This document shows positions 1,363-52,582 of a stretch of DNA of 64,000 bases, piece by piece. The notes beneath the pieces were generated by a model, which was not told where the DNA came from, did not search any database, and saw only the letters and a program-made list of their open reading frames with translations. The stretch covers positions 744,001 to 808,000 of the forward strand of contig NZ_JANHAU010000001.1 in assembly GCF_024464185.1 (NCBI RefSeq), given 5' to 3'. Origin of the DNA: Haloarchaeobius salinus. GTDB lineage: Archaea > Halobacteriota > Halobacteria > Halobacteriales > Natrialbaceae. Position 1 is the stretch's first letter, and every line of letters starts with the position of its first letter. Made by a program: the position numbers and the translations under genes.

Positions 1363-2286
1363 TCACTCCCCGGAGTTGCCGACCAGCCGCTCGGCCTCCT
1401 CGTCCGCCTTCCACTCGCCGAGTTCCTTCGGGTCGACGTGGACGAACACGTCGTCGACCTCCGGTAGCTCGCGGATGGCCTGGACGACGTCGCTCTCGAT
1501 GTCGTGGGCCTCGAACAGCGTGTGGTCGCCCTCGACCTCGATGTGGAGGCTCACGTCGATCTCCGGGCCGACGTAGTGGGCGACGACGTCGTGGACGCCC
1601 TCGACCTCGGGGTGGGCGGTGGCGCGCTCGACGATCTCCGCCCGGAGGTCGTCCGGCGGTGCCCCGCCGACGAGGTAGTTGACGTTGTCGCGGACGATCT
1701 CGACACCGGTCCAGAGGATGCCGAGCGAGACGACCGCGGCGGCCAGCGGGTCGAGCACCGGGTAGCCCGCGGTCGCACCGAGGACGCCGACGAGCGCCGC
1801 CAGCGCGGTGAGCACGTCGTTGCGGTTGTCGAGCGCCGTCGCGACCAGTGCGGGGGAGTTCGCGTCCGAGCCCCGTGTCAGACAGTAGCGGTAGAGCCCG
1901 AGCTTGATTACGGCCGAGCCCGCGAGCACGCCGATACCGGCCGGTGTCGCGTTGACGGCGATGTCGCCGGCCAGCAACGTCGTGCTCGACTGCCAGAAGA
2001 CGAGCACACCCGCGGCGAAGATGCCGGCGGCCACGAACAGCGAGACGAACGGCTCGATGCGCTCGTGGCCGTGGGGGTGCTCGAAGTCCGGCGGCTGGGT
2101 CGTCAGGTAGAGCCCGACGAGCACGACGAGGCTGTAGACGGAGTCGGAGAGGCTGTTGACCGCCTCGGAGCCGACGGCGAGGCTCCCGCTCTCGACGTAC
2201 ACCGCGCCCTTCGCCAGCGCCAGCGCGACGTTGGCGAGCAGGACGACGGCTCCGACCCGACGGACGGTTCGACGGCGGTCGTCCAT
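1363..2286 (-). CDS. Cation diffusion facilitator (CDF) family metal/proton antiporter
   Basis: A 307-residue membrane protein with six predicted transmembrane helices and a soluble C-terminal domain (about residues 210-307), the classic CDF layout for exporting divalent metals. In helix 2 the metal site reads NSLSD (N44...D48), in helix 5 DNRND (D153...D157); HPHGHERIE (70-78) is the conserved loop. An Asn in place of the first His/Asp of helix 2 differs from Zn transporters (HxxxD) and suggests Fe/Mn-type selectivity, which is an inference. The acidic C-terminal domain has HIEVEGDHTL and DVFVHVDPKE. Start at 2286 (MDDRRR); upstream in-frame sequence is low-complexity antisense to the HIT gene. 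Confidence 0.9.
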   Translation of the reverse strand: MDDRRRTVRRVGAVVLLANVALALAKGAVYVESGSLAVGSEAVNSLSDSVYSLVVLVGLYLTTQPPDFEHPHGHERIEPFVSLFVAAGIFAAGVLVFWQSSTTLLAGDIAVNATPAGIGVLAGSAVIKLGLYRYCLTRGSDANSPALVATALDNRNDVLTALAALVGVLGATAGYPVLDPLAAAVVSLGILWTGVEIVRDNVNYLVGGAPPDDLRAEIVERATAHPEVEGVHDVVAHYVGPEIDVSLHIEVEGDHTLFEAHDIESDVVQAIRELPEVDDVFVHVDPKELGEWKADEEAERLVGNSGE

Positions 2287-2365
2287 TCCTGTCGGGTAGT
2301 CGGTCGGCCGGTACTTAGAAGGACGGTTTCGCGTGAGGGCAGGCGGGCGAGAGCCGAACCGGGGG

Positions 2366-2920
2366 TCACTCGGGCCCGTCGTCTGGGAACCGCACCGCCG
2401 TGTCGTCGCCCTCGACGACCGCGCCGTCCTGTGCGGCGAACGCCTCGTACAGTCGCCCGTACGTCTCCGAGACCGCCTCGACGATGACCTTCGTGTCGCC
2501 GACGACCGGCATGAAGTTGGTGTCGCCGTTCCAGCGCGGGACGACGTGGGTGTGGAGGTGGTCGTCGATGGAGCCGCCGGCCGCGCCGCCACCGAGGTTC
2601 AGCCCGGCGTTGTAGCCGTCCGGCCCCATCGCCTCGTCGAGCGCGTCGAACGTCCGTTGTTTGAGGTGGGCGTGTGCGAGCAGCGTCCCGTCGTCGAGCT
2701 CCCGGAAGTCGCCGGTGTGGCTGTGGGGGATCACCATCGCGTGGCCCGGGTTGTACGGGTAGTTGTTCAGGATGACGAACGCGCCCGCGTTCCGGGCGAC
2801 GATGCGGTACTCGCGGTCGGCGTCCCGGGCGGGCAGCTCGCAGAAGGGGCAGCCGTCGATGTCGTCGTTCCCGTCGCGTTCCACCCAGTCGATGCGCCAC
2901 GGTGCGAACACCTGTTCCAT
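2366..2920 (-). CDS. HIT-family nucleotide hydrolase/phosphorylase
   Basis: 184 residues. The active-site triad HLHTH (H121, H123, H125) followed by VVPR is diagnostic of the histidine-triad superfamily, which hydrolyses or phosphorolyses dinucleotides such as Ap4A or nucleoside phosphoramidates. An N-terminal CPFC (C24-C27) together with H66/H68 (IPHSH) is the zinc-site pattern of the Ap4A-phosphorylase-like branch. The Gly-rich loop NLGGGAAGG before the triad is typical. Start at 2920 (MEQVFAPWR) matches family N-termini; upstream in-frame codons do not. Substrate is inferred, not shown. Confidence 0.9.
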   Translation of the reverse strand: MEQVFAPWRIDWVERDGNDDIDGCPFCELPARDADREYRIVARNAGAFVILNNYPYNPGHAMVIPHSHTGDFRELDDGTLLAHAHLKQRTFDALDEAMGPDGYNAGLNLGGGAAGGSIDDHLHTHVVPRWNGDTNFMPVVGDTKVIVEAVSETYGRLYEAFAAQDGAVVEGDDTAVRFPDDGPE

Positions 2921-3143
2921 GGTCCGAGTGTGGCCGGGGAGGCATTGAATCCCACGAAGCCCGGCACCGCTCTGCCCACCTGACATGAAAGGGACGCAAT
3001 ACCGGGTTCAAGACCCGGTTTCGAGGCTACAAGCAGCGACAGTTCACGGGGGAAACGACTCGTTACGGCAGAATTAGGAACCGACTACTCAGACACCAAT
3101 AATAATCAGTTTCGGTAAATTTTCGGCGCTGAACGGTCGGCTC

Positions 3144-3153
3144 TTTTTATACC
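3144..3153 (+). promoter_or_regulatory. TATA box for the 3178 zinc-ribbon gene
   Basis: tttttatacc lies in an AT-rich stretch about 25 nt before the ATG at 3178, so the mRNA is probably leaderless or nearly so. A short inverted repeat, ccatcc (3163-3168) and ggatgg (3176-3181), sits between it and the gene and includes the start codon. Confidence 0.6.
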
Positions 3154-3177
3154 TCTTGGTAACCATCCGGTAATTGG

Positions 3178-3378
3178 ATGGCGACGACTGACAACTCAAT
3201 CGACGGGCGGACCGAACACTGTGAGAGCTGCGACACCGACACCATCCACCAGGTGTCCGTCCAGCTCGTCACGGAGAGCACGAAGAAAGAGAACTCCCAG
3301 TTCTCCCGGGAACCCTACCGCGTCACGGAGTGCCAGCAGTGCGGGACCCGCGAGAGCCAGCGGATGAACAACGCCTGA
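3178..3378 (+). CDS. Small zinc-ribbon protein (66 aa)
   Basis: 66 residues with two CxxC knuckles, CESC (residues 15-18) and CQQC (52-55), separated by a beta-rich segment (IHQVSVQLVTES). This four-Cys arrangement is a zinc ribbon. Haloarchaea encode many such micro-proteins; some are tied to nucleic-acid binding or stress and biofilm traits, but I cannot assign a role to this one. It has its own TATA element and no operon partner; the neighbouring map gene is convergent, 39 nt away. Confidence 0.85.
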   Translation: MATTDNSIDGRTEHCESCDTDTIHQVSVQLVTESTKKENSQFSREPYRVTECQQCGTRESQRMNNA

Positions 3379-3417
3379 CGGTGACACGACCGCGGCCAGC
3401 GGTATCCGGCGACGGCG

Positions 3418-4320
3418 TCACTCCGACGCCGTCGTCACTTCGCATCCATCCTCGGTGACGATTATCGTGTGCTCCCGCTGACTGACCAGCGTGCCGTCGT
3501 CCTCCTTGAGCACCGGGTAGCCGTGGACGACGTTCTGCGATTTGAGCCGCCGCAGCGCCATGTTCGGCCGGGGGACGTCGAGCCAGCGCGTCGCGAAGGG
3601 CAGCGTCTGGAACTCCTCGGTGATCTGTTCGAGCGCCTTGCGTGCGTTGCGGTCGCGGACCGACGCCTCGCGCTCCAGCGAGTAGATCTCCTCCTGCTGC
3701 CCCTCGGAGACCTTGCCCGAGCCGTCGGTCGCGAACGGCTCGATGGCGACGACGTCGCCGACCTCCAGCGTCGTCCCCTGCTTCACCGCCCGGTTCGGGA
3801 TGTTCGGACTGACGTGTTGCTCCCAGTGGCCGAGCCCGTGGCCGGTGAGGTTCACGACGGGGTTGTAGCCGTAGCCGTCGATGACCTCCTCGATGGCCGC
3901 CCCGATGGTGCCGGTCTCGACGCCCGGTTCGACCGTCTCGAGCGCGGCGTCGAGCGCCTCCTCGGCGGCCTCGACGAGCTCCGGGTTGCCGCTGAAGTCG
4001 ACGGTGACCGCCGTGTCCGCCAGCCAGCCGTCGATGTGGACGCCGATGTCGAGTTTCACCATCTCCTCGCCGACGGTTCGTTCGTCGCCCGGGCCCGCCG
4101 CACCGTGGGCCGCCTCCTCGTCGACGCTGACGTTGACCGGGAACGCGGGTGTGCCACCGAGCTCGCGGATGCGGTCCTCCGCCCACTCGGAGATCTCGAG
4201 GTAGCCCGTCCCAACCTCGAGGCGGTCGGCTGCCTCGTCGCGTACCTGCGCGAGAATCTGCCCTGCCTCGCGGTGCTTCTCGTACTTCTCGGCGTCAAGA
4301 TCGACCTCGGGCTCGCTCAT
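3418..4320 (-). CDS. map: Type II methionine aminopeptidase
   Basis: A 300-residue cytosolic metallo-aminopeptidase that removes the initiator Met from nascent proteins. The pita-bread signature is complete: KLDIGVHIDGWLADTAVTVDF with two Asp metal ligands, NLTGHGLGHWEQH with the active-site His, and VVAIEPFAT with a Glu ligand, and the last Glu ligand near the end at REHTIIV. The insertion of about 50-60 residues before the last ligand places it in type II, as expected for Archaea. Start at 4320 (MSEPEVDLD); an upstream ATG at 4359 would add a basic stretch unlike the family. Single gene, followed by the convergent zinc-ribbon gene. Confidence 0.95.
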   Translation of the reverse strand: MSEPEVDLDAEKYEKHREAGQILAQVRDEAADRLEVGTGYLEISEWAEDRIRELGGTPAFPVNVSVDEEAAHGAAGPGDERTVGEEMVKLDIGVHIDGWLADTAVTVDFSGNPELVEAAEEALDAALETVEPGVETGTIGAAIEEVIDGYGYNPVVNLTGHGLGHWEQHVSPNIPNRAVKQGTTLEVGDVVAIEPFATDGSGKVSEGQQEEIYSLEREASVRDRNARKALEQITEEFQTLPFATRWLDVPRPNMALRRLKSQNVVHGYPVLKEDDGTLVSQREHTIIVTEDGCEVTTASE

Positions 4321-4392
4321 ACGCGTCCTTCGCGTACGCCGGAAAAAGAGGTTGCGCATCCGCGGCCCGTGTCGTGAATCAGCCCGCCGTGG

Positions 4393-4643: not shown

Positions 4644-5549
4644 CTACTCCCGGACGACCGCGGTTTGCATCCCCTTACTGTTGTACGCCGCGCCCGCCCC
4701 CTCGTGGTCGGCGACGATAACCCCGGCGGATGCGCCCGTCAGCTCGCCGAACTCGTCGATGGCGCGATCCGCCGCCGCCTGTGCGTCCATCCCCTCCTCG
4801 AGGTAGCGGACCGCGCGCCGCGAGAGGGTGACACGGGCGATGTCCTCGCCCGCACCGGTCGCGCTCGCGCCGCCCGCCGGTGAGCAGTAGAAGCCGCTGC
4901 CGACCTGTGGCACGTCGCCGACGCGGCCCGCGAGCGCGAGCCAGCGCCCGCCCGTCGACGTCGCCGCGGCGAACTGCTCACCGTCGCGCGCCACGGCACC
5001 GACCGTGTCGTGGTCCTTGCCCGCGGGCGCACCCGAATCCTCCTGCTCGGCGTCGGGGTCGGCCGTCGACCCGCCGAACGTCTCCTGTACCCAGCGGGCC
5101 TGCGCCGCCATGTCGCCCTCCGGTACGTCCGCGTCGGCGAACCGCTCGCGCGTGCTGTCGGTCCAGAGGTCGACCTCGCAGTCGATCCCCTGCGCCGCGG
5201 CGAAGTCGACCGCGTGGACGCCAGAGAGCAGGATGTGCGGCGTCTCCTCGAGGACGGCACGGGCGACGCTGACCGCGGCCTCCACGCCCGGCATCGAGGC
5301 CGCCGCACCCACCGACCGGTCGTCGGTCATGACGCCCGCGTCGGTTCGGAGGATGCCGTCGGACTGCGCACAGGAGCCGACGCCCGCGTTGAACCGGGGC
5401 GACGATTCGAGGACGCGCACCGCGCTCTCGACCGCGTCGAGCGGTGATGCCGCCGTCGAACCGCTCTCGGCCGCCTCGTCGAGCACTGCCTGTCGCGGGT
5501 CCGGGTCGTCGGGCACCCCGCCCGCACCGCCGTGTACGATGACCTGCAT
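4644..5549 (-). CDS. Isoaspartyl peptidase / L-asparaginase (Ntn hydrolase)
   Basis: 301 residues of the plant-type asparaginase family, which self-cleaves before a Thr that then acts as nucleophile. The cleavage site is HDTVGAVA with T182, followed by the family motif AAATSTGG. HGGAGG near the N-terminus and a second Gly-rich substrate loop (GRVGDVPQVGSGFYC) are also present. Such enzymes release Asp from isoaspartyl dipeptides and hydrolyse asparagine in the cytosol, helping to remove damaged proteins. A short acidic insertion (DPDAEQEDSG) precedes the cleavage site. Start at 5549 is the only good Met. It is divergent from icd. Confidence 0.92.
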   Translation of the reverse strand: MQVIVHGGAGGVPDDPDPRQAVLDEAAESGSTAASPLDAVESAVRVLESSPRFNAGVGSCAQSDGILRTDAGVMTDDRSVGAAASMPGVEAAVSVARAVLEETPHILLSGVHAVDFAAAQGIDCEVDLWTDSTRERFADADVPEGDMAAQARWVQETFGGSTADPDAEQEDSGAPAGKDHDTVGAVARDGEQFAAATSTGGRWLALAGRVGDVPQVGSGFYCSPAGGASATGAGEDIARVTLSRRAVRYLEEGMDAQAAADRAIDEFGELTGASAGVIVADHEGAGAAYNSKGMQTAVVRE

Positions 5550-5717
5550 GGACTGGCGTTCCGCGGGGTACCTCAAAAGTGCGGGTGGTCGAGCGCGGTC
5601 GACGTCGGTCACTGGGGGACACACGGACCCACCCGACCGCCGGTCGGGCCGCGATACTTGCCGCCCAGCGGCAAATGATAGCCCTTTTACCCGCACTGTT
5701 CGTCGCTTCAGGTGACA

Positions 5718-6992
5718 ATGAGCTCCGACTACGAGCATATCGAGAAACCCGACAGCGGCGAGAAGATCACGGCCGACGGCGACACGCTCTCCGTTCCGGA
5801 CGAGCCCATCATCCCGATCATCCACGGCGACGGCATCGGGAAGGACGTCGGTCCCGCCGCACAGAAGGTCCTCGACGCCGCCGCGGAGGCGACCGGACGC
5901 AAGGTCCACTGGATGGAGGTGTACGCCGGCGAGTCCGCACGCGAGATCTACGGCGAGGACGTCAACCTCCCCGACGAGACCGTCGACGCCATCCGCGAGC
6001 ACCGTGTCGCCATCAAGGGCCCACTCACGACGCCCGTCGGCGCTGGCTTCCGCAGCCTGAACGTCGCGCTCCGCCAGACGCTCGACCTCTACGCGAACGT
6101 CCGCCCGACGTACTACCTCGACGGCGTCCCGTCCCCCATGAAGGCACCCGAGGAGATGGACATGGTGACCTTCCGTGAGAACACCGAGGACGTCTACGCC
6201 GGTATCGAGTGGGAGCAGGGCACCGACGAGGTCCAGCAGGTCAAGGAGTTCGTCGAGGACGAGATGGGCATGGACGGCATCATGCACGACGGGCCCATCG
6301 GCATCGGCATCAAGCCCATCTCCGAGAAGGGCAGCAAGCGCCTCGTCCGCGAGGCCATCGACTACGCCATCGAGAACGACCGCGACACGGTCACCCTCGT
6401 CCACAAGGGCAACATCATGAAGTTCACCGAGGGCCAGTTCGGCACCTGGGGGATGGAGGTCGCCGAGGAGGAGTACCCCGACGACGAGGTCTTCGCCGCA
6501 CCCGACTCGCTCTGGGAGGAGCAGGACGAGGTCGACATCCCGGAGGACGCCGTCATGGTCGAGGAGCGCCTCGCCGACGCGATGCTCCAGTGGATGCAGC
6601 TCCGCACCGACGAGTTCGACGTGCTCGCCATGCCGAACCTCAACGGCGACTACCTCTCCGACGCCGCGGGCGCACAGATCGGCGGTCTCGGCATCGCGCC
6701 CGGCGCGAACTTCGGCGAGGGTCGCTGTCTCGCAGAGCCCGTCCACGGTAGCGCACCGAAGCGCGCCGGCCAGGACAAGGCCAACCCGACCGCACTCATC
6801 CTCTCCGGCCGCCTGATGTTCGAGTACCTGGGCTGGGAGGACACCGGGAAGCTCATCCGCGACGCCGTCGAGCAGACCATCTCCAACGGCAAGGTCACCT
6901 ACGACCTCGAGCGCCAGATCGAGGGCGGCGAGAAGCTCTCGACCACGGAGTACGCCGAGGAGATCATCGCGAACATCGAGCAGCTTTCGTAG
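5718..6992 (+). CDS. icd: Isocitrate dehydrogenase (NADP-type)
   Basis: 424 residues. This TCA-cycle enzyme oxidatively decarboxylates isocitrate to 2-oxoglutarate. Visible family motifs are IIHGDGIGKDV near the N-terminus, the isocitrate-binding GFRSLNVALRQ with the phosphorylatable-Ser position, RENTEDVYAGIE, NLNGDYLSDAAGAQIGGLG (metal-binding Asp and the C-terminal signature), and EPVHGSAPKRAGQDKANPTA in the cofactor region. The NADP assignment follows the usual haloarchaeal enzyme. The ATG at 5718 is chosen over a GTG at 5712 two codons upstream. Single-gene unit with a weak AT-rich element around 5690-5697. Confidence 0.95.
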   Translation: MSSDYEHIEKPDSGEKITADGDTLSVPDEPIIPIIHGDGIGKDVGPAAQKVLDAAAEATGRKVHWMEVYAGESAREIYGEDVNLPDETVDAIREHRVAIKGPLTTPVGAGFRSLNVALRQTLDLYANVRPTYYLDGVPSPMKAPEEMDMVTFRENTEDVYAGIEWEQGTDEVQQVKEFVEDEMGMDGIMHDGPIGIGIKPISEKGSKRLVREAIDYAIENDRDTVTLVHKGNIMKFTEGQFGTWGMEVAEEEYPDDEVFAAPDSLWEEQDEVDIPEDAVMVEERLADAMLQWMQLRTDEFDVLAMPNLNGDYLSDAAGAQIGGLGIAPGANFGEGRCLAEPVHGSAPKRAGQDKANPTALILSGRLMFEYLGWEDTGKLIRDAVEQTISNGKVTYDLERQIEGGEKLSTTEYAEEIIANIEQLS

Positions 6993-7304
6993 AGCGCTCC
7001 TCGAACCCCGACTGCCGGGAGCATCGAGTGGCTCTCGTCGACGGCGCGGCACGACCGCTCCACGGGACCGTTCTTCTGTCGCCCGCACGGCCCGCATCGA
7101 GACCGTCAGACGTTGGTCCGGAGCCCGACAGTTGTTGCTGTTCCAACAACAAACCGACCGCACCGCCCTCGTTCTCGCACCGTCTGCGGCCCGTCTCAGG
7201 ACCATCCGGCTGCAGTCATCCGGATTCGCGGAACGCCACAGAAACTGTCGGAAACCCGTGTAATAACTAGAACTTATTTCTATTAGTGACCACATACGTG
7301 TGAC
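6993..7304. other. 312-bp intergenic spacer with promoter at its end
   Basis: No gene was recognised here. The left part keeps GC-rich composition. gttgttg (7131-7137) and caacaac (7144-7150) form a 7-bp hairpin of unclear meaning, possibly the 3-prime end of the icd transcript. The right end (7261-7285) becomes AT-rich, with a TATA-like cttatttct about 25-30 nt before the ATG at 7305. Confidence 0.6.
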
Positions 7305-7682
7305 ATGGCATCTCCCCCCATGCCACCCGAGCAGGTGCCCGACTTCGTCGTCGAGCACTTCGAGGAGCACGACCCAGAGACGTTGCGCGACATCGTGGCG
7401 TACGAGGCACAGCGCGCGCGCTCGACGGAGGTCCCGAAGTACATCACGGAGGTGTTCGTGATGCAGAGCGACGAGACGAAACGCGCCATCGCGACGTACG
7501 CCCGGGACCTCGCCGCACACAAGGAAGAACGCGCCGCGGAACTCGCCGAGCAGCAGCGAGCCGAGGCGGAGGCGGCCGCCGACGGCGGCGAACCACGGAC
7601 GACCGAACCGGAGCAGTCGACGACCGACTCGGACGACGACGACGACGGCCCATCGTTCGCGACCGGGCCGATGTTCGGGTGA
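7305..7682 (+). CDS. Haloarchaeal hypothetical protein (125 aa)
   Basis: 125 residues. The first 80 form a helical region (PDFVVEHFEEHDPETLRDIV, then EVPKYITEVFVMQSDETK and an Ala/Glu-rich helix rich in DLAAHKEERAAELAEQQ). The last 40 are disordered and acidic, with TTDSDDDDDG and a terminal GPSFATGPMFG. No catalytic motif or membrane segment is visible. The pattern and codon use support a real soluble protein. It has its own promoter and is convergent with the LOV kinase gene, 9 nt away. Function unknown. Confidence 0.75.
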   Translation: MASPPMPPEQVPDFVVEHFEEHDPETLRDIVAYEAQRARSTEVPKYITEVFVMQSDETKRAIATYARDLAAHKEERAAELAEQQRAEAEAAADGGEPRTTEPEQSTTDSDDDDDGPSFATGPMFG

Positions 7683-7691
7683 CCGTCGGCG

Positions 7692-9107
7692 TCAGGCACC
7701 GCCGTCGCAGTCGATCTCGAACCGCGCTCCACTCCCGTCCTGCGGGACAGCAGCGACCGACCAGCCGTGGGCCTCCGCGACCGTCGCGACGATGGCCAGC
7801 CCGAAGCCCGTCCCGTCGTCGTCGGTGGTGATACCCTGCTCGAACAGCGAGTCCGCGACCGCCGGATCGATACCCCGTCCGTCGTCGACCACCGCGAACC
7901 CGTCGTCGGTCGCCTCGACGCGGACCGTCGTCGCGTCCGGCGCGTGGTCGACAACGTTCCGGAACAGGTTCTCGAACAGCGTCTGGAGCCGCTCCGGGTC
8001 CGCCTGGACCGTCCCGGGCCCGTCACCGAGTACAACGTCGAGGTCCCCCGTCTCCCCCGTCGTCCAGGCGCGCGAAGCGACCGTCTCCAGGGCCACCGGC
8101 TCCTTCTCCGCCCGCGAACGTCCCTCGCGTGCGAGCGTCAGCACGTCCTCGATGAGCCGCTCCATCCGGTCGAGTGCGTCTGCGGCCGCGCCGACCTGCT
8201 CGTCCTCGATGCCGTCGAGGTAGCCCTGGGCGACCGAGAGCGGGCCACGGAGGTCGTGACTGACGAGCTCGGCGAACTCGTCGAGTCGCCCGTTACGGTC
8301 GCGCAGGCGCTCCTCGAGCTCGACCCGCTCGGTCACGTCCTTCTGGAACCCGAAGTAGTGCGTGACCGTCCCCGAACCGTCCTCGACCGGCGTGATCTCC
8401 AGCTGGTTCCAGAACGGCGTCCCGTCCTTCCGGTAGTTCCTGATGACCGTGGAGATGGAGTTTTCGGCATCGAGGGCCGCCCGTATCTCCGCGACCGTCT
8501 CCTCGTCGGTGTCCTCGCCCTGCAGGAAGCGACAGTTGTCGCCGAGCACCTCGTCGGCGTCGTAGCCGGTCAGTCGCTCGAACCCGTCGTTGACGAACAC
8601 GAGCGACTCGTCGGCGTTCGCCACGGTGATGCCGACCGTCGCCTGGTCGAGCGCCCGCTCGCGCAGCTCGAGCGCCTGTCGCAGGGACTGCTCCGACGTC
8701 AGCCGCCGGATCTGCGAGAGCAGCCGCGCCACGGCATCCGTCCCACGCCGTGGGACGTACGCTGTCCCGGACTGCATCAGCACATCGTCCACGGTCGTCA
8801 CGTCGGGGTCTCGCGCGTAGAGGACGAACGGGGTCGCGCTCACGTCCCGGACGGCTCGGAGGGTCTCGGGCACCGCCGGCACTCCCGACCCGGGAGCGTG
8901 GACCACGCAGTCGACGACCCGGTCGGCCAGCGCCGTCGACACCGCATCGAGGCTATCGACCCCCACGACGTCGAGTCCGTCGGTCCGCGTGAGCGTGGAG
9001 ACGTCCTCGTCGTCGTCCACGGCGACGACGAGCACCGACGACTCGTCGACCACGTCCGGCTTCGGTGTCCAGGACGGGTCACGCGCGGAGAACGACGGGC
9101 TGTTCAT
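7692..9107 (-). CDS. LOV-domain sensor histidine kinase (putative blue-light sensor)
   Basis: 471 residues without membrane segments. Residues about 20-135 form a receiver-like fold. Residues 145-262 are a PAS domain with the flavin-binding LOV signature: GDNCRFLQG with C192 as the adduct-forming Cys, NYRKDG (N224), FWNQL (N234) and FGFQKD (Q255), all positions that hold FMN. The kinase core follows: VSHDLRGPL with phospho-acceptor H284, LFRNVVDHA (N box), VVDDGRGID (G1) and GTGFGLAI (G2). It should autophosphorylate in response to blue light or redox state and signal to an unlinked regulator. Start at 9107; longer in-frame starts lack family sequence. LOV assignment rests on motif identity. 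Confidence 0.9.
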   Translation of the reverse strand: MNSPSFSARDPSWTPKPDVVDESSVLVVAVDDDEDVSTLTRTDGLDVVGVDSLDAVSTALADRVVDCVVHAPGSGVPAVPETLRAVRDVSATPFVLYARDPDVTTVDDVLMQSGTAYVPRRGTDAVARLLSQIRRLTSEQSLRQALELRERALDQATVGITVANADESLVFVNDGFERLTGYDADEVLGDNCRFLQGEDTDEETVAEIRAALDAENSISTVIRNYRKDGTPFWNQLEITPVEDGSGTVTHYFGFQKDVTERVELEERLRDRNGRLDEFAELVSHDLRGPLSVAQGYLDGIEDEQVGAAADALDRMERLIEDVLTLAREGRSRAEKEPVALETVASRAWTTGETGDLDVVLGDGPGTVQADPERLQTLFENLFRNVVDHAPDATTVRVEATDDGFAVVDDGRGIDPAVADSLFEQGITTDDDGTGFGLAIVATVAEAHGWSVAAVPQDGSGARFEIDCDGGA

Positions 9108-48743: not shown

Positions 48744-49502
48744 TCACCGCCGTCCCGCCTTCTCCACCTCGAGCGCGTCAGCGACGGTCTCGAACGCGTC
48801 CGCGACGTCCGCGTACCGGTTCGGCGAGTCGAACTCGAACCGCTCGGGCCGGTTCGGGCCCAGGAGTTCACCGGCGGTCGCGAGCAGCCCGTCACCGGTG
48901 GCCCACGTCAGCCGGACGGTGCGGGCCGCGTCGTCGAACGCGACCCGGTCGAGCGCGCCGAGGCCGAAGCAGGTCGCGCCGTCGACACAGAGCGACGGGG
49001 GTGCCAGCTCGTACCGGGTGCCGTCCGCGTACCAGTCCGCGAGCACCGCCGTCGGGAGCAGGCCCGCGGGCTCGTCGGCGACGGCGCGCGAGACGGCGTC
49101 GACGACACCTTCGGCCGCCGTGGCGTCCACCTCGAACGTCGTGTGGTCCGGGACGTAGTGGAGGAGCCGTCGGCCGTCGCGGGACGCGTCCAGCCGTTCG
49201 AGCGTGACGAACCGGTGGACGTCGGTCAGGTCGAGGAGGGCGGCGAGGGGTTCGCGGACGCGGTCGACGGAGGCACGGAGGACGCCATCGTCGACCTGTT
49301 CGGCCGCGGCCCGGAGCTGTTCGGCGAGTTCGGGGTGGTCCGACGCGAGCGCCCCGGGGTCGAGATGCAGCGTGACGGCGTCGGCGTGGTCCAGCACCGC
49401 CCCGACCGCGGCCGCCGTCGCACTCGCCTCGGCGGTTGCGTCGCCACTCGTCGTGAGGACGAGGGTGTGCGTCGGGTCGAACGGACGGTCCTGGGTGGTC
49501 AT
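48744..49502 (-). CDS. Hypothetical protein co-encoded with the Cys-rich exported protein
   Basis: 252 residues, soluble and acidic. It alternates strands and helices: HTLVLTTSGDATAEASATAA, TLHLDPGALASDHPELAEQL, LLDLTDVHRFVTLERLDASR, RLLHYVPDHTTFEVDATAAE, LADWYADGTRYELAPPSL, and RVAFDDAARTVRLTWATGDG. No Cys pair, catalytic motif or signal peptide is seen. The start at 49502 lies 6 nt after the stop of the Cys-rich gene, so the two form an operon with the exported protein first. It could be an immunity or processing factor, which is only inference. Confidence 0.7.
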   Translation of the reverse strand: MTTQDRPFDPTHTLVLTTSGDATAEASATAAAVGAVLDHADAVTLHLDPGALASDHPELAEQLRAAAEQVDDGVLRASVDRVREPLAALLDLTDVHRFVTLERLDASRDGRRLLHYVPDHTTFEVDATAAEGVVDAVSRAVADEPAGLLPTAVLADWYADGTRYELAPPSLCVDGATCFGLGALDRVAFDDAARTVRLTWATGDGLLATAGELLGPNRPERFEFDSPNRYADVADAFETVADALEVEKAGRR

Positions 49503-49508
49503 CTCGTT

Positions 49509-50453
49509 TCAGACGAGTGGGACGCCGGTCGGCGGTGCGAGGGTGCTCGCAGCCAGGTAGTATGCCAGTGCGGTGACGACGATGGCGGGCACGGCGATGC
49601 CGGCCGCGTCGGCCGCCTGGTTGATGGCCTCCTCGAACGCGTCACGGAGGTCGGCGAGGCTCGGAAGCCCGCCGTTGGGGCCACAGACCCGCGTACACCA
49701 GTTGGAGGCGTGTTCCTCGCCGACCCAGATACAGTTACCGTTCTTGCCGATCCAGATGTTGATTCCGCCACGGTAGTTCCCCTCCGGGAAGATGGCGAAG
49801 TGACCGTGGGGCATCGGCGGCGGGTTCGACCCGGCACACTCCGGCGAGTGACCGCTGTCGTTGCCGGTCACCCGTACGCACCAGTCGTTGACGAAGGGTA
49901 CGTCCGTACAGCAGACGTTGCCACCGCTCTTGCAGTCGATGGGGTACGGGATGTCGACGGCCGTGCTCGGGCCGCTGGTCGCACGGACCGGGAGCGGCTG
50001 TTCGCTGACGGTCGTCGTTGCCCGGGTCGTCGTGACGACACCGCCCCGCCGGGTCTCGAACGCGAGCGACCGCTCGATGGTCGAGCCATCACGGGAGTAC
50101 CGGAGGGTCCTGGCGTCCGTCCAGTGGATCCCGTGCACGCCGACGGTCGCTCGACTGAGCTGCTCGAGGTCCCGTCGAGTGTGCACGACGTCGGTCCGGG
50201 CGTCGACGTCGGCGACGAGGTAGACCTGATACCCGTCCCCGAGTCCGAGGGTCGTTATCGCCGCCAGGTCGCGCTCGGGGTGGAACGCGATCTCGACGGC
50301 GAGTTCCCTGAGCGACAGCCGCGGGTCGACGTTGCGACGGTCGCGCTCGTCACGTGTCTTGGCGGCGACGAGCGGGGAGCCGGCGATCGCTCCCGTCGCG
50401 GCGAGTCCTCGGAGCACGGTGCGTCTGTCGGTCGGAGTCGAATCTCCGGACAT
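49509..50453 (-). CDS. Tat-exported cysteine-rich protein with two NWC-x-RV modules
   Basis: 314 residues. A twin-arginine signal ([18 protein letters not shown]) with no lipobox precedes a soluble domain (about 40-170). The last 145 residues hold eight Cys: C174, C181, C182, C192, C206, C241, C253 and C257. Two related modules are visible: [21 protein letters not shown], wait residues shown as GNVCC..NDWCVRV, and [16 protein letters not shown] hydrophobic helix (about 282-306) ends the protein, finishing GVPLV. The layout (Tat signal, long N-domain, Cys-rich C-part) resembles halocin C8 precursors, but sequences are not alike. No enzyme motif. Single strong promoter; first gene of a two-gene unit. 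Confidence 0.85.
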
Positions 50454-50476: not shown

Positions 50477-50486
50477 ATATATAATT
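50477..50486 (-). promoter_or_regulatory. Strong TATA region of the Cys-rich protein gene
   Basis: atatataatt reads aattatatat on the minus strand, 24-33 nt upstream of the ATG at 50453, in the most AT-rich stretch nearby (50475-50512). This fits a leaderless, possibly strongly expressed gene. Confidence 0.65.
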
Positions 50487-50639
50487 TCTTTCGAATTCTC
50501 TCGGACGCAACCGCCTTCGGGTACCCCTCTGCCTCCCCGGGCTGGCAGTTAGTGCATCCGGTCGTCGGAACGACCCCGCCCACCGGAGCGGACGTCGGGA
50601 TGGTCGCGGTCGCGTTCGAGCGCCGGGGAGGTCACAGTC

Positions 50640-50774
50640 GCCCCAGTGGTCGGGGTGGACGTAGATACGGTACAGGTGGGCCACGTTCTCGGCCTCGTTG
50701 TCCGGAACGCCCTCGACGTAGCCGACGACCGCGCCGTCGGCCGTGGCCCCGTGCAGGGAGAGCGAATCCGTCAT
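50640..50774 (-). pseudogene. Truncated GNAT-type acetyltransferase remnant
   Basis: From an ATG at 50774 ([10 protein letters not shown]) the frame reads [27 protein letters not shown], the motif C/D to motif A start of GNAT enzymes, which normally continues G-x-G-x-G/A. After HPDHWG the frame becomes unlike the family (DCDLPGART). The acetyl-CoA loop and the C-terminal half are missing in all three minus-strand frames as far as I can see. Region 50454-50899 otherwise holds only the promoter at 50477 and the start of pyrG. I infer a decayed acetyltransferase. Confidence 0.55.
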
Positions 50775-50899
50775 GGGTCGTCGATCAGATGCGGGATGGG
50801 AACGGTTTGGTGCGGGGTGACACACCGTCCCACCGACACCCGTTCGCAAGCGTGGCCGCCCTCCGAAATCGTTTTCATCCGGCCCCGCGCACCATCGGT

Positions 50900-52582
50900 A
50901 TGCCGACCGATTCCGAAACGGGGTACGACCCCACACTCGGGAACAAATTCATCTTCGTTACAGGCGGCGTGATGTCCGGACTGGGCAAGGGTATCACGGC
51001 CGCGAGCACAGGCAGACTACTGAAGAACGCCGGGTTCGACGTGACGGCGGTCAAGATCGACCCGTACCTGAACGTCGACGCCGGGACCATGAACCCGTAC
51101 CAGCACGGCGAGGTGTACGTCCTCAAAGACGGTGGCGAGGTCGACCTCGACCTGGGGAACTACGAGCGGTTCCTCGACGAGGACATGACGTTCGACCACA
51201 ACGTGACGACGGGCAAGACGTACAAGCACGTCATCGAGAAGGAACGCGCCGGGGACTACCTCGGCAAGACCGTCCAGATCATTCCACACATCACGGACGA
51301 CATCAAGCGCCGGGTGCGCGAGGCGGCCGAGGGCACGGACGTCTGCATCGTCGAGGTCGGGGGCACCGTCGGCGACATCGAGGGCATGCCGTACCTGGAG
51401 GCGCTGCGGCAGTTCGCGCACGAGGAGGACGAGGAGGACTTCCTGCTCACCCACGTCACGCTCGTCCCGTACTCGAAGAACGGCGAGCAGAAGACGAAGC
51501 CGACCCAGCACTCGGTGAAGGAGCTCCGGAGCATCGGTCTCCAGCCGGACGTACTGGTCGGGCGCTGCGGCGAGCGACTCGACCCCGAGACGAAGGAGAA
51601 GATCGCGCTGTTCTGCGACGTACCGACCGACGCCGTGTTCTCGAACCCGGACGTCGAGGATATCTACCAGGTCCCGCTGGTCGTCGAGGAGGAGGGCCTC
51701 GACGGCTACGTGATGGACCGGCTGAACCTCGACGCGAAGGCGCTGCCCGAGGAGAAACGCGACAACACCTGGCGCAAGCTCGTCACCCGCGAGCGCGAGG
51801 GCGAGGTCGACATCGCGCTGGTCGGGAAGTACGACCTCGAGGACGCCTACATGAGCGTGAACGAGGCGCTCAAGCACGCCGGCCTCGCGAAGGGCGTCGA
51901 CGTGAACGTCGTCTGGGTCGACTCCGACGAGATGGTCAACGCCGACGCCGACGGCACCCACCGCGAGCGGCTCGAGTCCGCCGACGGCATCGTCGTCCCC
52001 GGCGGCTTCGGCTCCCGCGGCACCGAGGGGAAGATCCACGCCATCCAGTACGCCCGCGAGAACGACGTGCCGTTCCTCGGGCTCTGTCTCGGCTTCCAGA
52101 TGGCCGTCGTCGAGGTCGCACGGAACGCCCTCGGCTACGAGGACGCCCACAGCGCCGAGATGGACCCCGACACGTCGAACCCGGTCATCGACATCCTGCC
52201 CGAGCAGTACGAGGTGTCGGACATGGGTGGGACGATGCGGCTGGGCGCACACCAGACCGACATCACCCCCGGCACGCTCGCCGAGGCGGTGTACGACGCG
52301 ACGGCCTGCACGGAGCGCCACCGCCACCGCTACGAGGTCAACCCCGAGTACTTCGAGGACTTCGCGGAGACCCCGCTCGTGTTCTCCGGCCGCGCGGGCA
52401 ACCGCATGGAGATCCTGGAGTACGAGGACCACCCGTACTTCCTCGGGACGCAGTTCCACCCGGAGTTCCGCTCCCGGCCCGGCCGGGCGTCGCCCCCGTT
52501 CGTCGGCCTGCTGGAGACCGTCATGGAACTGGCCGGCGTCGACGGAGCTGACAACGGCGTCGACAGGGAGGTGACCGCCTGA
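50900..52582 (+). CDS. pyrG: CTP synthase
   Basis: 560 residues, makes CTP from UTP, ATP and glutamine. N-terminal synthetase domain: [61 protein letters not shown]-terminal class I glutaminase with Cys in GLCLGFQ and His-Glu in FHPEF. Start at 50900 ([10 protein letters not shown]); the family starts just before the first motif. Its stop overlaps the next start by one base, so pyrG and guaA(B) form an operon. Confidence 0.97.

Follow-up and report, generated by a model that had tools for sequence, protein, structure and literature searches.

The window analysed here, a 64,000-nucleotide stretch of DNA from the 3.85 Mb assembly of Haloarchaeobius salinus, carries two adjoining genes between an ABC-transporter operon and pyrG. 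The first encodes a cysteine-rich protein, and the second, called the partner, starts 6 nt past its stop codon (Table 1). The initial annotation had described an open reading frame (ORF) for a Tat-exported protein with eight cysteines and a hydrophobic C-terminal helix, co-encoded with a gene of no known family, and this outline is largely borne out. The ORF is intact and lies exactly at the proposed position, and comparison indicates that the reading frame is real because it is homologous to full-length proteins that are 41–53% identical. A TATA box (TTATATAT) is located roughly 27 nt 5′ of the ATG of the cysteine-rich gene in a locally AT-rich stretch and forms a promoter-like element with BRE-like CGAAAGAAA, an arrangement that suggests a leaderless transcript. 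The remnant of a GNAT acetyltransferase gene also resides between the cysteine-rich gene and pyrG, and genome G002 carries an intact GNAT gene at this position and lacks the cysteine-rich gene (about positions 50540–50936 of the window, minus strand; positions 860–1468 of locus L027).

Table 1. Features of the cysteine-rich gene and its partner in the window (aa, amino acids)
Feature	Position	Strand	Basis
Cysteine-rich Tat-type protein of 314 aa; candidate precursor of a halocin-like toxin	49509–50453	−	Intact ORF; full-length relatives 41–53% identical
Predicted Tat-type signal, about residues 1–31, TDRRTVLRG	50361–50453	−	RR invariant in relatives; Pfam TAT_signal E = 0.036, sub-threshold
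β-rich N-domain, about residues 45–150, putative carrier or pro-domain	50004–50321	−	AlphaFold strands at residues 50–150, low confidence; separate ORF in L100, L014 and L058
Cysteine-rich domain, residues 174–262, WxG..CxWxG core	49668–49934	−	20-member alignment; C241 and C257 jointly missing from five members
C-terminal helical hairpin and tail, residues 266–314, ending APPTGVPLV	49512–49658	−	Hydrophobicity and model; near-identical in relatives
Promoter-like element made up of BRE-like CGAAAGAAA and the TATA box TTATATAT	50477–50493	−	Sequence; putative function
Partner, 252 aa, soluble, candidate immunity protein	48744–49502	−	Directly 3′ of four intact and three decayed clade members

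Export through the Tat pathway is predicted from the twin-arginine motif, which is unchanged in the three closest full-length relatives, whereas the corresponding Pfam match stays below threshold. The eight cysteines occupy positions 174, 181, 182, 192, 206, 241, 253 and 257, and hydrophobicity and modelling both place a single hydrophobic helix at about residues 283–305. AlphaFold2 models of the two proteins, which were built from four sequences and are weak, yield a pLDDT of 57 for the cysteine-rich protein and 69 for the partner. The former consists of a β N-domain, a β cysteine region and helices at residues 266–284 and 290–305. Foldseek searches with both models against the PDB return nothing with an E value below 0.001. 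The best match of the cysteine-rich model, a WD40/TolB-type β-propeller (E = 0.009, TM score 0.22), was obtained with the pLDDT 57 model and is not treated as evidence.

Searches with the single cysteine-rich sequence match 14 of 391 Halobacteria genomes, and a seven-member profile raises this number to 31, counting full-length, split and decayed copies. Matches in a sample from the whole phylum are confined to genomes of the same order. Close full-length members are found in Natronolimnohabitans innermongolicus (50% identity) and in genomes G145 (53%) and G089 (41%), and the same locus is present in the same-genus relative Haloarchaeobius sp. FL176 (G004). A collection of named contigs gave nothing with the single sequence and three named loci with an alignment-based scan. 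Relatives were absent from the viral contigs searched, and the sole plasmid-borne case is a distant relative in Haladaptatus. The loci occupy differing genomic sites and their distribution is patchy. The N. innermongolicus genome (G024) holds at least three family loci, on contigs C69 (L007/L015), C86 (L008/L014) and C21 (L009/L060), which comprise a fused copy that is intact, a split copy and, at the end of a contig, a fragment of the N-domain.

Neither the cysteine-rich protein nor the partner has a match above the cut-off in Pfam, NCBIfam, PHROGs or PADLOC, and a PDB sequence search gave nothing relevant. As judged from sequence, the cysteine-rich protein belongs to a real family that has no entry in any curated library searched. 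The family was not described in the literature we searched. It may have been listed earlier in the toxin survey of Makarova et al. (2019), which reportedly predicted many uncharacterised archaeal secreted toxins through guilt by association.

An alignment of 20 members reveals a C-domain core with six cysteines (C..C..C..WxG..CxWxG.E..C..C). Behind this core, a hydrophobic helix reaches nearly to the C terminus. Nearly all members lack a lysine or arginine after this helix. The last 30 residues are near-identical among close full-length members despite the divergence of their N-domains, marking the C terminus as the constrained part of the protein. Five members (L056, L075, L076, L078 and L014) lack both C241 and C257, and this joint loss predicts a disulfide between the two. 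As a further pair of positions, C174 and a second cysteine of the CC at 181–182 are shared with the Natronolimnohabitans copy and are both absent from protein P0006.

One element of the initial annotation, a duplicated N-D/N-W-C-x-R-V module, is not a conserved feature: of the three closest relatives, two do not conserve it. Shuffle tests of the two NWC-x-RV regions gave P values of 0.003 for the cysteine-rich protein and 0.0025 for P0006, compared with 0.41 for P0003 and 0.18 for P0004, and even the low values are generous because the regions were picked after the motif had been seen. The alignment assigns the two cysteine stretches to different, non-repeated positions of one domain. On these grounds we reject a conserved internal duplication.

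Several relatives divide the protein into two genes. In L100, L014 and L058, an N-domain with the Tat signal and a signal-less cysteine domain are encoded by separate ORFs that overlap by a single base (GAATAATG in all three), and in L065 the two ORFs are 12 nt apart. These split forms suggest an N-domain that is able to work in trans and may convey the cysteine domain out of the cell. Two relatives are also extended (L065, positions 1754–4336; L058, positions 4885–6798), with several repeated domains ahead of the N-domain that produce proteins of 600–860 aa, and the cysteine domain follows as a separate ORF.

The partner gene lies directly 3′ of the cysteine-rich gene on the same strand, at a distance of +4 to +52 nt, in all four intact members of the clade. 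Even the most diverged of these partners, from G089, is recovered by profile comparison (probability 88%, E = 2.9 × 10−6). Elsewhere the pair sits between cobalamin-synthesis-like genes on the opposite strand (Natronolimnohabitans; gene identity read by eye) or beside a glycosyltransferase gene (Natrinema gari).

Losses within the clade are one-sided. At three loci the partner ORF is intact next to a broken or reduced cysteine-rich gene: two deletions leave a fragment in Haloarchaeobius sp. FL176, the gene is broken over two frames in Natrinema gari, and about 38 C-terminal residues remain in G406. At four more the cysteine-rich gene has been deleted, with around 17 nt of its ORF left beside the intact partner in G002, and with the partner of G040, G243 and G195 located at the glycosyltransferase site shared with N. 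gari. The reverse, an intact cysteine-rich gene that has lost its partner, was not seen among the clade's own loci. Partner pairs compared within two groups of these loci exhibit dN/dS values of 0.19–0.60, which indicates that orphan partners are still under purifying selection, though of only moderate strength. Single-sequence searches detect the partner family in 54 of the 391 genomes, compared with 14 for the cysteine-rich family, and many of its distant members stand alone, away from any cysteine-rich gene; the partner family may therefore have another role. The genes upstream of orphan partners include no common toxin. A PH-like reading of the C-terminal half of the partner was considered and found no support.

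Outside this clade, the position occupied by the partner is usually taken by a membrane-protein gene. Among 18 loci with other intact or split cysteine-domain genes (L058 taken from coordinates), 11 encode a short same-strand protein with at least two predicted membrane helices within about 120 nt 3′ of the cysteine-domain gene; L073 and L074 are near-identical, and the loci are thus not all independent. Three further loci have such a gene at +285 to +648, and no clear membrane gene is found downstream at L077/L096 and L099. Crude gene calling over the window and the retrieved loci, among which are some of these 18, gives a background of 4 in 119. From clade to clade the membrane proteins vary; they are unrelated to the soluble partner, and none of five compared with Pfam scores above the cut-off. 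On the minus strand of L097 (reverse-complement coordinates 2084–2827), two related two-helix membrane proteins of 64–65 aa are encoded in a row behind the cysteine-domain gene, as if a candidate immunity gene had been duplicated.

Taken together, a predicted secreted, disulfide-rich protein with a putatively membrane-seeking C terminus, its constant companion, one-sided decay, a patchy distribution and small membrane proteins that take the companion's place in other clades and are particular to each point to a bacteriocin–immunity cassette. We assign a probability of roughly 0.65 to the hypothesis that the two genes form a halocin-like cassette of this kind, composed of a Tat-exported, membrane-inserting antagonism protein and a cytoplasmic immunity partner. 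Two properties expected of such a cassette are seen here, since the candidate toxin gene is accompanied by its companion in every intact clade member, consistent with a protective partner, and at seven loci the candidate toxin gene has decayed (three) or been deleted (four) while the companion is kept. The initial annotation had proposed a new secreted toxin, adhesin or surface module, and of these the toxin reading gains support because the same second gene lies 3′ of all intact close homologues, decay is one-sided and membrane-protein genes fill the slot elsewhere; an adhesin or surface module becomes less likely. Homologues always next to the same second gene had been named as support, and this pairing holds within the clade. 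The findings named as counter-evidence were a lack of conserved cysteines, which are present across relatives, and a confident match to a known enzyme or housekeeping family, of which Pfam, NCBIfam, PHROG and PDB yield none. Other observations weigh against a cassette: the partner is soluble whereas the companions of other clades are membrane proteins, the partner family is the wider of the two, L077/L096 and L099 have no clear membrane gene, and the structure models are weak.

If this hypothesis is correct, the cysteine-rich protein would be made as a precursor that folds, forms its disulfide bonds and leaves the cell through Tat. The β N-domain would serve as carrier or pro-domain, and the active part would comprise the cysteine-rich domain and the amphipathic-hydrophobic C-terminal hairpin, probably freed by an extracellular protease acting in the low-confidence linker at about residues 151–173. 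Cleavage between the N- and C-domains is the most likely maturation step because extracellular proteolysis activates other halocin precursors (PMC12893001; PMC11509114 for ProC8). The released part might then insert into or depolarise the membrane of competing archaea, and the adjoining cytosolic partner of around 250 aa would protect the producer.

Class II-type bacteriocins are likewise encoded by short cassettes, in which the secreted protein is disulfide-bonded, ends in a hydrophobic helix and is accompanied by a small membrane immunity protein. The cassette proposed here differs in being archaeal, in its predicted export by Tat rather than by a leader-peptide/ABC route, and in having a much larger precursor and, in this clade, a soluble companion. 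A broader and more tentative proposal, which we hold at somewhat less than even odds, is that these loci represent a haloarchaea-wide family of membrane-inserting bacteriocins that pairs one disulfide-locked, Tat-exported carrier/toxin scaffold with interchangeable immunity genes, and in whose split, translationally coupled forms a signal-less toxin hitchhikes on the carrier through Tat. The immunity genes would then encode a soluble cytosolic protein in the clade studied here and unrelated small membrane proteins elsewhere. A recognisable core (WxG..CxWxG, six cysteines and a C-terminal helix) plus a companion slot would allow prediction of archaeal antagonism from genome sequence. The split forms, which may be co-exported, would offer an interesting instance of Tat hitchhiking in archaea.

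Other interpretations of the same genes have to be weighed. The single C-terminal hydrophobic helix could instead anchor a cell-surface protein by its tail, such as an adhesin or a mating or recognition factor, with the cysteine-rich domain kept at the membrane of the producing cell itself and the partner acting as an accessory or regulatory protein; the repeated domains ahead of the N-domain in L058 and L065 resemble those of surface proteins. This explanation is unlikely, given that nearly all members lack a positively charged tail after the helix (the H. salinus protein ends in APPTGVPLV), that NCBIfam and Pfam detect no sorting motif, and that one-sided loss is unexpected for an adhesin and its accessory. 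A tail anchor thus fits the tail chemistry and gene-loss pattern less well than a cassette does. Alternatively, the partner might have a function of its own, perhaps as a regulator or stress protein, and simply offer the cysteine-rich gene a site to land in or a promoter to share, while the cysteine-rich protein might have some other extracellular role. The breadth of the partner family, found mostly away from any cysteine-rich gene, agrees with such independence, which we nevertheless regard as quite improbable: the partner adjoins all four intact and all three decayed clade members at several unrelated genomic sites, and in other clades its slot holds membrane-protein genes that are unrelated to it.

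Complete sequences exist for few halocins, and the best described is halocin C8, which is made as a Tat-exported precursor with a long N-domain and a cysteine-rich, hydrophobic C-terminal part (PMC11509114). The initial annotation saw likeness to halocin C8 in layout and not in sequence, and our comparisons agree. The halocin C8 N-terminal model PF22862 does not match the cysteine-rich protein at E values up to 10, nor does the C-terminal model TIGR04449, which also fails on the relatives at E values up to 1. Two plasmid halocin C8-like proteins used as controls match both models strongly (PF22862 at 1 × 10−44 and 3 × 10−51). The control genes were retrieved with a mature halocin C8 query, and only the natural genes found serve as evidence. 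Profile–profile comparison aligns only the Tat signal, and the halocin C8-like proteins differ in cysteine spacing and lack the WxG/CxWxG motif. A true halocin C8 member too diverged for the models would account for the common layout and for the hypothetical gene directly downstream of the plasmid halocin C8-like genes, as at the cysteine-rich locus, yet with both models and the profile comparison failing we reject this assignment as highly improbable. On this evidence, the protein would work like a halocin without being halocin C8.

In ProC8, the halocin C8 precursor, one gene gives rise to both the halocin HalC8 and the immunity protein HalI, whereas the locus described here has a separate partner gene. 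HalH4 and HmHapP, likened here by description, are protease-activated halocin precursors (PMC12893001), and the cysteine-rich protein may need extracellular cleavage too. The active part of HmHapP is its N terminus (PMC12893001), whereas the conserved part of the cysteine-rich protein is its C terminus. A further family, with the signature RGYLVPGTPxLTKxYLPxxxxxWFGKQP, is encoded at L063 (positions 3329–4021) and L056 (positions 7273–8202), directly 3′ of a plasmid halocin C8-like gene and, at a distance of about 2.2 kb, 3′ of P0020, a divergent cysteine-rich gene; it may represent a halocin-linked processing or immunity factor.
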